Shown one piece after another: positions 1 through 6,829 of a stretch of DNA of 64,000 nt. The stretch lies in contig NZ_CP012109.1 of the NCBI RefSeq assembly GCF_000280925.3, positions 6,282,501 to 6,346,500 of the forward strand, written 5' to 3'. This stretch comes from Myxococcus hansupus. Its GTDB lineage: Bacteria; Myxococcota; Myxococcia; Myxococcales; Myxococcaceae. The position numbers and the translations under genes are program-made. Each line of letters starts with the position of its first letter. Positions within the stretch are counted from its first letter, which is position 1. A model generated the notes under the pieces. The model saw only the letters and a program-made list of their open reading frames with translations. It made no database searches and was not told the origin of the DNA.

Positions 1-1151
<1,151 letters not shown>

Positions 1152-3894: not shown

Positions 3895-4065
3895 GGGCGC
3901 GGTCGACTCTTCCCCTCCGTGAAGCCGGACGCAAGGCTCGCGACGTTCGTCCGCCCGCCCCCCACTCGGCCCGGAGCGAAGGAGGACCACCGTGAGTGGA
4001 ATCCCACCTCGTGGGAGGGCAACGACATGGATCATTCACGCCGCCGTGTTTAGATGACGCCCCCC

Positions 4066-5274
4066 ATGAGCTACCTCGTTCTCGCCCGCAAATGGCGCCC
4101 GCAGAAGTTCGACGACATGACCGGACAGGAGCACGTCGTCCGGACCGTTGCGAACGCCATCAAGATGGACCGGGTCGCACACGCGTACCTGTTCTGCGGA
4201 CCTCGCGGCGTGGGCAAGACGACGGCCGCCCGCCTTCTCGCCAAGGCCCTCAACTGTGAGAAGGGCCCCACCGCGCAGCCGTGCGGCGAGTGCCGCGCCT
4301 GCACGGAGATTGCCGCCGGCACCAGCGTGGACGTGGCGGAAATCGACGGTGCGTCCAACAACGGCGTCGAGAACGTCCGCGAGATTCGAGAGAACGCGAA
4401 GTACCTGCCGCAGCGGGACCGGCACAAAATCTACATCATCGACGAGGTCCACATGCTGTCGGGGGCGGCGTTCAACGCGCTGCTCAAGACGCTGGAGGAG
4501 CCGCCCGGGCACGTGAAGTTCATCTTCGCGACCACGGAGGCGCACAAGCTCCCGGACACCATCTTGTCGAGGTGCCAACGCCATAACTTCCGGCGGATTC
4601 CCGCGGCGCGGATGCTTCAGCGGCTCCAGGAAATCTGCAAGGCGGAGGGCGCTGGCATCTCCGACCGCTCGTTGTCGCTGGTGGTGCGCCAGTCCGAAGG
4701 CGGCATGCGCGATGCGCTGAGCCTGTTGGACCAGGTGCTCGCCTCGTGCGGCGCCAACCCCTCCGATGAAGAGGTGGCCGAGGCGCTGGGCGCCATCGAC
4801 CGCACGCTGGTGCAGGACTTCGCTGACGCGCTGGTCCACAAGGACGCCAAGCGGGTGTTGGAGCGCGTGGAGGAGGTCTTCAACCGCGGGCTCGACTTGA
4901 AGCGACTGGCGGAGGAGCTCGCGTTCCAACTGCGGCACCTCTTCGTCACCAAGACGCTGGGCAAGGCCCCCGACGAGCTGGCCGAGTCCGAACAGAAGGC
5001 GCTGGTGGCGCTGGCGCAGGACGCGGAGCCCGCGCAGCTCACCCGGCTGTTCGACGTGGTGCACGGCTGCATCTGGGATGTGTCGCGCGCGGCCCAGCCT
5101 CGGCTGGCGCTGGAGATGGCGCTGCTCAAGGCCATCCAGTTGTCTCCGGGTGGCTCCATTCCCGAGCTGCTTGCCCGCGTGGACAAGCTCGCGGCGGGGA
5201 TGGGTGACGGGTCCGCCAAGTCGAACGCTGGAGCGCCAGGAGGTCGCTCCAGTCCCGCCAACTTTCGCGCCTGA
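4066..5274 (+). CDS. dnaX: DNA polymerase III gamma/tau subunit, zero-frame (gamma-like) part
   Basis: AAA+ ATPase of the clamp loader. The start ATG at 4066 gives the canonical MSYLVLARKWRPQKF; the upstream in-frame ATG at 4054 adds only four residues. Walker A is GPRGVGKTT, the four-cysteine zinc module follows (C..CGECRAC), and the DEVHMLS Walker B and SRC sensor region are intact. Domain III ends near residue 390. This frame then stops at 5272-5274 after 402 residues, about gamma length. The proline-rich linker and tau-specific domain lie in the +1 frame (see next entry), so full-length tau needs a net +1 frameshift or an indel correction. Confidence 0.93.
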   Translation: MSYLVLARKWRPQKFDDMTGQEHVVRTVANAIKMDRVAHAYLFCGPRGVGKTTAARLLAKALNCEKGPTAQPCGECRACTEIAAGTSVDVAEIDGASNNGVENVREIRENAKYLPQRDRHKIYIIDEVHMLSGAAFNALLKTLEEPPGHVKFIFATTEAHKLPDTILSRCQRHNFRRIPAARMLQRLQEICKAEGAGISDRSLSLVVRQSEGGMRDALSLLDQVLASCGANPSDEEVAEALGAIDRTLVQDFADALVHKDAKRVLERVEEVFNRGLDLKRLAEELAFQLRHLFVTKTLGKAPDELAESEQKALVALAQDAEPAQLTRLFDVVHGCIWDVSRAAQPRLALEMALLKAIQLSPGGSIPELLARVDKLAAGMGDGSAKSNAGAPGGRSSPANFRA

Positions 5275-6829
5275 GACACGGCACGAAGCACCCGCACACG
5301 CCACCGCTCCGGCACCACGTCCGTGGGAGGCCCGAGGTGCGCCCGCAGCGGCGCAGGCTCCGAATCCGGACGCAGGCATGCGAACGGACTTCGGTTCGGG
5401 TCAGAGCCCTGTGTCCGCGCAGCCGGGCCACAGCGACATGCCGCGCGCCAGCGGGTTCAGCACTCCGGAGCAAGATGCATCGCCTCGACTGAGTCCTGCG
5501 TCCGCGAAGTTCGGCCATGACAGTCCGGCCGTCGCTGGCGGGCACCACGTAGGTGCCATGCGCCACGATGCGCCGCCCCCCGCCGGTGACTTTTCCGCGC
5601 CGATGCGTCCCGAGGAGCCGCCGCGCTTCAGCGCCGACGCGGCGGCCATCCGCCACGACGAGCCCCCGCGTGTCGCGACACCACCGGTCCCGCGCATGGA
5701 CGACCTGTCCCCGTCGGCGGCCAGGCCCTTGTCGTTCCTGCGCAATGGCGGTGGAGCCAACGGTGGCGCGCCCTCCGAGCCCCAGGGCTATCAAGCCACG
5801 CAGATGATTCCCTCTGGGCCCGTGATGGAGGGCCTGTCGCCATCGGCGGCGCGTCCGCTCTCCTTCCTCCGAAACGGCGGCTCGGCCCAGCCTCCCGCGG
5901 TCTCCACGGAACCACCCGCTGGCGCCACGCCGCTGTCGCGCACCACGGAGCCCGCTCCGACGGTCCGGGTGACCAACATCCGTCGGCCGGAGCCCATCGC
6001 CGCCGAGGCAGCGGACTTCGCGGAAGAAGACGCGCGCTACTACCCCGAGGAGAACTCCCCCGAAGGCTGTGCCTCCGGCGAGTGCATCCCCGATGAAGCC
6101 GCGCCGGCATCGTCCGTGCCCCCGGTTGCGCAGGCACAGGCCGCCCCCCCACCGGCGCCAATTGAGCCTCCGCGCCCATCCGCTCCGATGGCAGCCACCC
6201 GCCCGCCAGCGCCGACCGAGCCCCCTCGCCCATCTTCTCCAATGATGGCCGCGCCTCCTGCGGCAGCGGCATACCGCCCTGCCCCGGCGGCACCCGAGCC
6301 CACACTCGCCAGCGAGCCCGAACCGGAGCCGCCCGCCCCCGTCGTCACCCGCTCTCGGGACAACCCGAACCTGCCCCTCATCGAGCGGTGGCGGGCCGCG
6401 GTGGAGACCGTGAAGTCCTCCCACCCCCGGCAGGGCGCGGCGCTGGCCAATGGCCGGCTGATGTCCATGCGGGGCGGTGAAATCGTCCTCGGCTTCCTGC
6501 CCGTGGCCGGATTCCACCGCATGGCCGTCAACTCCACCGCGGGCAAAGCCGCCGTGGACCGGGCCCTGGCCGAGCACTTCGGCCGCGCGGTGAAACTCAC
6601 CCTTCAGGACGCGTCCCCGGACGATCCGCGACTGGGCCCCAGCCTGGCGGAGCAAGACGCCCAGAGCCGCGAGGCCCACGAGAAAAACACGGACAGCAAG
6701 GTCCGCAACCACCCGGCCGTCCGTGCGGTGCTCAAGTTCCTGGGCGGCGAAATCGAACACATCCAGGTCTACGAGCCCGAGCGCCCTGGGGCCGTGCCGG
6801 CGGCCGACACTCCCGACGACAGCGCCTGA
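5222..6829 (+). CDS. dnaX: DNA polymerase III tau-specific linker and C-terminal domain (in +1 frame of dnaX)
   Basis: A roughly 530-residue open frame that continues dnaX one base out of phase, with no start codon of its own at the join. It codes for a long Pro/Ala-rich linker. That linker contains two copies of the motif LSPSAARPLSFLRNGG (about 5704-5751 and 5830-5877) and two related EPPRPS.PM units. A folded C-terminal domain of about 150 residues follows, beginning LPLIERWRAAVETVKSSHP, which looks like DnaX domain V, the polymerase-alpha-binding part. Codon usage is normal for this genome throughout, so the frame is under selection. It ends 92 bases before ybaB. Confidence 0.8.
   Translation, partial: RTLERQEVAPVPPTFAPETRHEAPAHATAPAPRPWEARGAPAAAQAPNPDAGMRTDFGSGQSPVSAQPGHSDMPRASGFSTPEQDASPRLSPASAKFGHDSPAVAGGHHVGAMRHDAPPPAGDFSAPMRPEEPPRFSADAAAIRHDEPPRVATPPVPRMDDLSPSAARPLSFLRNGGGANGGAPSEPQGYQATQMIPSGPVMEGLSPSAARPLSFLRNGGSAQPPAVSTEPPAGATPLSRTTEPAPTVRVTNIRRPEPIAAEAADFAEEDARYYPEENSPEGCASGECIPDEAAPASSVPPVAQAQAAPPPAPIEPPRPSAPMAATRPPAPTEPPRPSSPMMAAPPAAAAYRPAPAAPEPTLASEPEPEPPAPVVTRSRDNPNLPLIERWRAAVETVKSSHPRQGAALANGRLMSMRGGEIVLGFLPVAGFHRMAVNSTAGKAAVDRALAEHFGRAVKLTLQDASPDDPRLGPSLAEQDAQSREAHEKNTDSKVRNHPAVRAVLKFLGGEIEHIQVYEPERPGAVPAADTPDDSA
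5254..5274 (+). other. Candidate +1 frameshift window in dnaX
   Basis: The switch from the gamma frame to the tau frame must occur before the UGA at 5272. Zero-frame coding looks genuine until about 5215. Two shift-prone codons lie just upstream of the stop: CCC-G at 5254 and UUU-C at 5263. At UUU-C, tRNA-Phe could re-pair with UUC in the +1 frame. No A-rich slippery run like that of E. coli or Thermus dnaX is present. A one-base sequencing error or true mutation is an equally simple explanation. Confidence 0.4.

Follow-up and report, generated by a model that had tools for sequence, protein, structure and literature searches.

A conserved frame break in dnaX of the Myxococcaceae: a probable case of programmed +1 ribosomal frameshifting

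Known recoding of dnaX and described +1 systems

In Escherichia coli the gene dnaX gives rise to a short gamma and a long tau protein through -1 frameshifting at A_AAA_AAG, with a Shine-Dalgarno (SD) sequence upstream and a stem-loop downstream of the slip site. We analysed dnaX of Myxococcus hansupus within a stretch of 64,000 nucleotides (nt) of contig NZ_CP012109.1 (positions 6,282,501 to 6,346,500; this whole stretch is the window to which all coordinates refer, and all features lie on the + strand), where the gene is split over two open reading frames (ORFs). We consider it likely, with a probability of roughly 0.87, that dnaX of the Myxococcaceae is a programmed +1 ribosomal frameshift gene, in which ribosomes that shift would make tau (920 amino acids, aa) and ribosomes that do not shift would make gamma (402 aa). 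The likeness to E. coli lies in the gene itself, in the pairing of a short gamma with a long tau and in the position of the break past the clamp-loader domains. Unlike in E. coli, it is tau and not gamma that needs the shift, as tau is not contained in one continuous ORF; the direction is +1, the slip site would be UUU-C, the hairpin lies upstream and not downstream, and neither A_AAA_AAG nor any other A-run is present at the junction.

Frameshifting in the +1 direction is known from prfB, where, as we propose for dnaX, the P-site tRNA slips to an overlapping codon, and where an SD-like sequence (GGRGGU in the present case) is found upstream and a UGA in the 0 frame close by. The slip site of prfB is CUU-U(GA) and its SD sequence lies 3 nt upstream. 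In the myxobacterial gene, by comparison, GGRGGU is 18 nt away and inside a hairpin, the A-site codon is a sense codon in all 89 family genomes with a readable junction (CGC in 84), and the purpose is likely the production of two subunits and not autoregulation.

Two-ORF dnaX genes have also been described (PMC3711429, and PMC5009743 for the reversed organisation). As here, tau is distributed over two ORFs that need recoding, and the gamma stop lies in the 0 frame. Antonov et al. 2013 listed 17 such genes with a -1 change at the DNA level, 12 of them with poly-A runs for which transcriptional slippage was favoured (PMC3711429). The present gene falls outside this poly-A group, as its frame changes by +1 and its junction holds no A-run. 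For the hairpin a synthetic counterpart exists: on 70S ribosomes, +1 shifting at CUUUGA without RF2 was promoted in artificial constructs by a stable hairpin that lay just upstream, beside the E site, and mimicked an internal SD duplex (PMC6321510). The present hairpin, by contrast, is natural and conserved and ends ~11 nt before the P-site codon. In gene 60 bypassing, a 5' stem-loop was proposed to act as a motor (PMC5009743).

The main text of PMC3711429, supplements aside, contains none of the words Myxococcus, Stigmatella, Corallococcus, Anaeromyxobacter and 'myxobacteri', and the covered part of the 2016 review PMC5009743 contains neither 'Myxococcus' nor 'myxobacteria'. Among the matches listed from the open-licence literature on dnaX frameshifting and myxobacteria (titles and abstract openings) there was no report of +1 recoding of dnaX. 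Within these sources, the dnaX recoding known so far is either -1 slippage or poly-A slippage, and the +1 type described here appears to be unreported.

The frame break and its conservation

The first ORF (ORF1, 4066..5274) encodes a gamma-like protein of 402 aa with clamp-loader domains I-III and ends at the UGA in 5272..5274; an in-frame ATG upstream, at 4054, would lengthen it to 406 aa. It matched the Pfam domains DNA_pol3_delta2 and DNA_pol3_gamma3 (at E 0.001), positions 1-396 of the 578-position NCBIfam model NF011526 (DnaX gamma/tau) and, with 444 bits at a cut-off of 250, TIGR02397, and so carries the clamp-loader ATPase and domain III of a bacterial DnaX. The second ORF (ORF2, 5267..6829) runs for 520 codons in the +1 frame with coding periodicity and encodes a Pro/Ala-rich linker followed by the tau C-terminal region of a bacterial DnaX. 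It was without a Pfam match at the same threshold and matched NF011526 positions 390-574 at ~6191-6766 (E 2.4e-20, 72.9 bits); the whole-protein cut-off of this model (670), which is out of reach for half a protein, was missed by ORF1 alone and by ORF2 alone. Judged from these matches, the two ORFs are two halves of one DnaX protein, and a +1 shift at the UUU in 5263-5265 would, by coordinates, join 400 and 520 residues into a product of 920. A previous sequence-only reading of the locus had placed the clamp-loader domains in one frame ending at 402 residues and the linker and tau domain in more than 500 codons of the +1 frame, which agrees with these results. Its remark that codon usage in the +1 frame is good holds in part and fails for the first ~100 codons past the break, where third-position GC is 0.60-0.79 as compared to 0.88-0.95 upstream in ORF1 (pooled, 88 genomes).

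The same reading offered two explanations for the break, namely a new type of +1 recoding, or a one-base sequencing error or mutation. In the second case, the change would be confined to this strain and would hide a single-frame gene. In a first search of 31 genomes, a dnaX frame of 405-408 codons was found in 19 of 19 genomes of the genus, that of M. hansupus included. In the family as a whole (f1) a strong dnaX match was obtained in 90 of 96 genomes; in G043 the contig ends before the junction, and in all 89 genomes with a readable junction the frame is broken at that place, with the 0-frame stop after 392-406 codons (L156 and L031, and likewise L181 and L002, are duplicates and entered the count as one each). 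A 90th case, locus L195 of G057, lies on a partial contig and outside the count of 89, and is broken too with the same element. No dnaX was found in five of the 96 genomes (G038, G083, G093, G094 and G098; 230-1260 contigs each), of which three gave no match at 1e-20 and two gave a match of 37-38% that was judged to be another clamp-loader-like gene. Since the identical break occurs in 89 of 89 genomes, with a frozen sequence element around it, the split is real and a one-base error or mutation is excluded, its chance being practically nil even though such errors are probably present in the data set: in G064 (L146/L192) the tau half is in the 0 frame and the linker C-run has one C fewer than in G063, a second frame break that is probably an assembly error. 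L146 was excluded from the periodicity, stop-frame, TTT:TTC and GC tallies. The first of the two explanations is supported, and orthologues open in one frame, which had been named as an outcome that would refute it, were seen only outside this family and its sister family (f3).

The place of the switch is bounded by stop codons. The nearest upstream +1-frame stop lies 42 nt before the UUC of the slip site C-UUU-C, and the first C of that site precedes the 0-frame stop by 10, 13 or 25 nt, so that the shift falls inside this stretch in the genomes that bound it. Because phase-specific GC is weak in the Pro/Ala-rich linker, substitution periodicity was used in its place, in close and gap-free pairs of sequences (194 upstream, 197 for the element and 60, 48, 16 and 14 downstream) that share ancestry and are not independent. 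Upstream, the third positions of the 0 frame vary most (0.144 vs 0.023 and 0.003; 194 pairs), and within +5..65 (counted from the C of CUUUC as 0, window 5262) those of the +1 frame do (0.199 vs 0.063 and 0.086; 60 pairs), as they do further on. Between +29 and +599, the 84 genomes with enough sequence hold 120 stops in the 0 frame, spread over 61 genomes, and 156 in the -1 frame, spread over 79. The +1 frame has five, in two genomes (L158 and L180) whose tau frames terminate after 151 and 184 codons. By tblastn, 78 of the 89 gave the tau C-terminus, which lies in the +1 frame with no prior stop in 77 of these, the exception being the G064 gene mentioned above; of the 11 loci without it, nine hold less than 1000 nt past the break and two hold 1510 nt.

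These results bear on two readings in which no shift takes place. That the tau half is a decaying remnant and gamma the sole product could be argued from the long product being predicted from sequence only, yet it is hardly credible with the third-position-biased substitution in the +1 frame and the intact path to the tau C-terminus in 77 of 78 loci; moreover, the tau C-terminus has a single match in the 9.49-Mb source genome, no second copy having been found there, and full tau would therefore be obtainable only from the split dnaX. Alternatively, translation might end with gamma, and re-initiation or translational coupling at an internal start might give the tau half as a second protein; the SD-like GGAGGU near the end of ORF1 could serve such a start. 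We regard this as improbable, as no +1-frame ATG, GTG or TTG lies at initiation distance, the first +1-frame start follows 30 to 468 nt past UUC at a place that is not conserved (and is missing from one short locus of the 89), the +1 frame is under coding constraint already within +5..65, and an internal start leaves C-UUU-C and the rare UUU unexplained.

Among the 0-frame codons that follow UUU, the stop comes 3rd in 76 of the 89 genomes, 4th in 11 and 8th in 2. Further downstream, 0-frame stops occur once per ~134 codons, from which the chance of a stop within 8 codons is 0.058 per sequence, a value that is not to be multiplied over genomes because these are related. A near stop has been kept while its position moved, so that the early termination that would yield a gamma-sized protein appears to be maintained; from this pattern, the two products gamma and tau have probably been selected.

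Slip codon, hairpin element and proposed mechanism

The candidate slip site C-UUU-C (5262..5266) reads NNC UUU CGN in the 0 frame and UUC GCN in the +1 frame, and is present in the same frame in 89 of 89 genomes. Among the 0-frame codons examined from -38 to +12, UUU is the sole one for which re-pairing one base 3' (on UUC) is possible in all genomes, the next best being CCC at -8 (48 of 89). The gene thus combines a conserved frame break with a P-site codon able to re-pair one base 3', as is characteristic of programmed +1 frameshifting. The sequence-only reading, besides remarking on the lack of an A-run, had pointed to both UUU-C and CCC-G before the stop; UUU-C is retained, and CCC-G was rejected with CCC at that place in only 48 of 89. 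A slip linked to the stop codon (at GCC before UGA) was rejected too, since the distance from the C to the stop varies (10, 13 or 25 nt) while CUUUC is fixed.

In ORF1 outside the slip site, TTT and TTC were counted at 24:876 (88 genomes); another TTT occurs in ORF1 of only six of the 89 genomes, and the other eight conserved Phe columns have TTC in 84-89 of 89. In the M. hansupus genome 64 of the 66 tRNA genes were examined; two of these are for tRNA-Phe, each with the anticodon GAA. By the decoding rules, this anticodon pairs better with UUC than with UUU, and a +1 move would therefore improve pairing. Frameshifting in E. coli argI has reportedly been observed, and UUU-pyrimidine sites have reportedly been studied as well. 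When the codon before the stop of prfB was randomised, CCC and UUU were the next most slippery (PMC10885494).

Two further explanations keep a change of frame at this site and differ in how it comes about. Decoding of UUUC as a four-base codon by a dedicated tRNA would suit the invariance of these four bases, but is very improbable, both tRNA-Phe having the anticodon GAA and no odd Phe tRNA being present among the 64 genes examined. Transcriptional slippage, in which RNA polymerase would add or drop a base to give mixed mRNAs, is known from other dnaX genes such as that of Thermus and the poly-A two-ORF genes (PMC3711429; PMC5009743), and a nascent RNA hairpin can stimulate it (PMC5009743). 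It has little chance of applying here: the invariant site holds no run other than UUU, while the slippage motifs of Antonov et al. often consist of a homopolymer of at least eight or of two shorter runs combined (PMC3711429), and the fixed frame of UUU and its preference over UUC are explained by re-pairing of a tRNA and not by RNA:DNA slippage.

Upstream of the slip site lies a hairpin that was absent from the sequence-only reading (5229..5251; 5' arm UGGAGCG at 5229-5235, 3' arm CGCUCCA at 5245-5251). Its top contains the SD-like GGAGGU (5239..5244; GGRGGU in 89 of 89), and a spacer of constant length and variable sequence (5252..5261) separates it from C-UUU-C. The complete element is gap-free in 89 of 89 genomes and consists of GG[AG]GCG (-32..-27), three bases, GG[AG]GGU (-23..-18), CGC[UC]CC (-17..-12), the variable spacer and C-UUU-C (0..+4). 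The segment 5228-5252 folds at -16.6 kcal/mol (z -4.5; none of 200 shuffles was as stable), and over the 89 genomes the energy averages -16.6 and is -10.7 at its weakest. In the 77 distinct sequences, the 10-pair structure has 95.8% of its cells paired, vs 92.7% in shuffles and 25.7-51.3% in slid registers; 33 stem cells carry changes on both sides, vs 11.8 in shuffles (0 of 500 as high), and the covariation score also exceeds that of shuffles, as does the paired percentage. The six inner pairs are formed in 77 of 77, five pairs are invariant, and pair 11-27 is found as AU (67), GU (6) and GC (4). Of 64 fourfold boxes with invariant first two bases, the third base is invariant in four, namely in three of the five within the element and in one of the 59 elsewhere in the gene, which indicates that the constraint acts on nucleotides. 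With its paired stem changes and frozen fourfold sites, the element is conserved beyond coding constraint, again as in programmed +1 frameshifting.

A covariance model of the element gave one strong match, at the dnaX junction, in 90 of the 96 family genomes (E <= 3.8e-8), and all other matches listed for 147 genomes were at 3.7e-5 or weaker. No convincing copy of the cassette was found elsewhere in the genome or the class: the best stray match (G137) was not dnaX, and those in G093 and G115 had no dnaX match nearby. A downstream stem-loop was rejected as a candidate, conservation being low past ~+13 and a 113-nt fold being not above shuffles (z -0.85).

A ribosomal slip at UUU, stimulated by the hairpin and yielding both products, would account for the observed break, element, frame switch, paired changes and nearby stop as follows. 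The ribosome would translate the clamp-loader half until UUU occupies the P site, where tRNA-Phe (GAA) would move one base forward from UUU to UUC, and translation would continue in the +1 frame to give tau of 920 aa. Ribosomes that do not slip would read two more sense codons and then the UGA, releasing gamma of 402 aa. The last base of the hairpin is ~11 nt upstream of the UUU in the P site. This distance corresponds to a place near the exit of the mRNA from the small subunit. The hairpin, refolding behind the ribosome at or just outside this exit, would be the likely stimulator, and its refolding may pull the mRNA backwards out of the ribosome and so favour the +1 move. GGRGGU in the hairpin top may add SD pairing with the 16S rRNA, or pausing.

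Several observations weigh against this mechanism. The 18 nt between GGRGGU and UUU are too far for the mode of prfB, so that a classical RF2-like stimulation does not fit. At the moment of the slip the A-site codon is sense in all genomes and CGC in 84 of 89, not a stop, and the mechanism does not account for what slows decoding there. The test of the upstream hairpin in PMC6321510 was done with an empty A site (no RF2), unlike the situation in dnaX. In the stem, three pairs show double changes, vs 2.0 in shuffles (120 of 500 as high), which is not above shuffles; pair 8-30 (CG 41, UA 25, GC 1, UG 1) is formed in 68 of the 77 distinct sequences and unpaired in 9, and the outermost pair 7-31 is unpaired in 19. 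Finally, the variation in the spacer (-11..-1) does not clearly tell which frame is read, and the exact slip codon is therefore assigned from invariance and pairing.

The sister family and the meaning of the split

The sister family f3, represented by six loci in five genomes, likewise has a split dnaX. In G142 both loci carry C-UUU-C, the tau half follows in the +1 frame, and the corresponding position is taken by another hairpin (UGGCCGCC/GGCGGCCA and CGGCCGCC/GGCGGCCG; -17.1 and -17.9 kcal/mol, z -3.9 and -3.6); with 6% contamination in this assembly, the two loci are perhaps from two organisms. At the other four loci the tau half is in the -1 frame; near the ORF1 stop, it is preceded by C_CCU_UUU_C, a non-poly-A heptamer, in L184, L185 and L186 (G143, G144 and G027), and by eight consecutive C in L187 (G020), a case that may be due to a -1 slip, transcriptional slippage or an assembly error. 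The f3 assemblies are drafts, so the -1 cases, and the C8 case especially, may be errors. A maximum-likelihood tree with midpoint root was built from 46 rows, of which 31 came from the 89 family genes, 6 from f3 and 9 from others. In it the split genes fall together to one side of a branch with moderate support only (97/72), and the -1 genes fall together to one side of a branch within f3 (97/89). The simplest reading of this tree is that the split arose once and that the shift direction changed later in f3.

Outside f1 and f3, the searches of the order and the phylum recovered complete dnaX frames that are single (501-756 codons). Nine frames in that set looked short (G021, G111, G117, G124, G128, G130, G134, G136 and G145), of which six run off the contig and two are complete and single. 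The ninth, L257 (G145, family f10), has an unusual tail and stops 432 codons past the match start, with 45 codons left on the contig; this may be a cut contig, an error or another frame break.

We see an even chance that dnaX represents a natural and ancient bacterial +1 frameshift that is driven by refolding of a hairpin behind the ribosome, and not by a stop or hungry A-site codon, and that sets the gamma:tau ratio of the replicase, with the need for two products outliving a change of mechanism from +1 at C-UUU-C to -1 at C_CCU_UUU.

Some further features of the locus were noted. The tau linker contains two copies of the short peptide repeat LSPSAARPLSFLRNGG (window ~5696-5890), of which L195 has three similar copies; a search for it as a DNA repeat at 24 nt found nothing. 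A Cys motif, SPEGCASGECIPD, lies further on in the tau linker, at ~6056-6100; the single-ORF dnaX of L021 has a similar motif (SSPEGCATGECLPD), as does L163. The genes next downstream of dnaX are ybaB/ebfC and then recR, a usual neighbourhood of dnaX. Upstream (1244-2249), four tRNA-Ser genes and one tRNA-Arg gene (ACG) are clustered. At L219 (G000) a tRNA-Arg with anticodon GCG, which is unusual in bacteria, was predicted beside a tRNA-Asp.

In this textbook recoding gene, the Myxococcaceae thus present the roles of the frames reversed, the direction as +1 and the putative stimulator upstream. If true, the proposed mechanism would make dnaX a compact and testable natural case of +1 frameshifting at a sense codon with an upstream hairpin as its driver; in the literature covered, such an effect was tested with constructs. 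Gene prediction without a model of the shift would give a gamma-only DnaX and could miss tau throughout the family. That the sister family has kept the split even as the direction of the shift changed suggests selection on the making of both gamma and tau as such.

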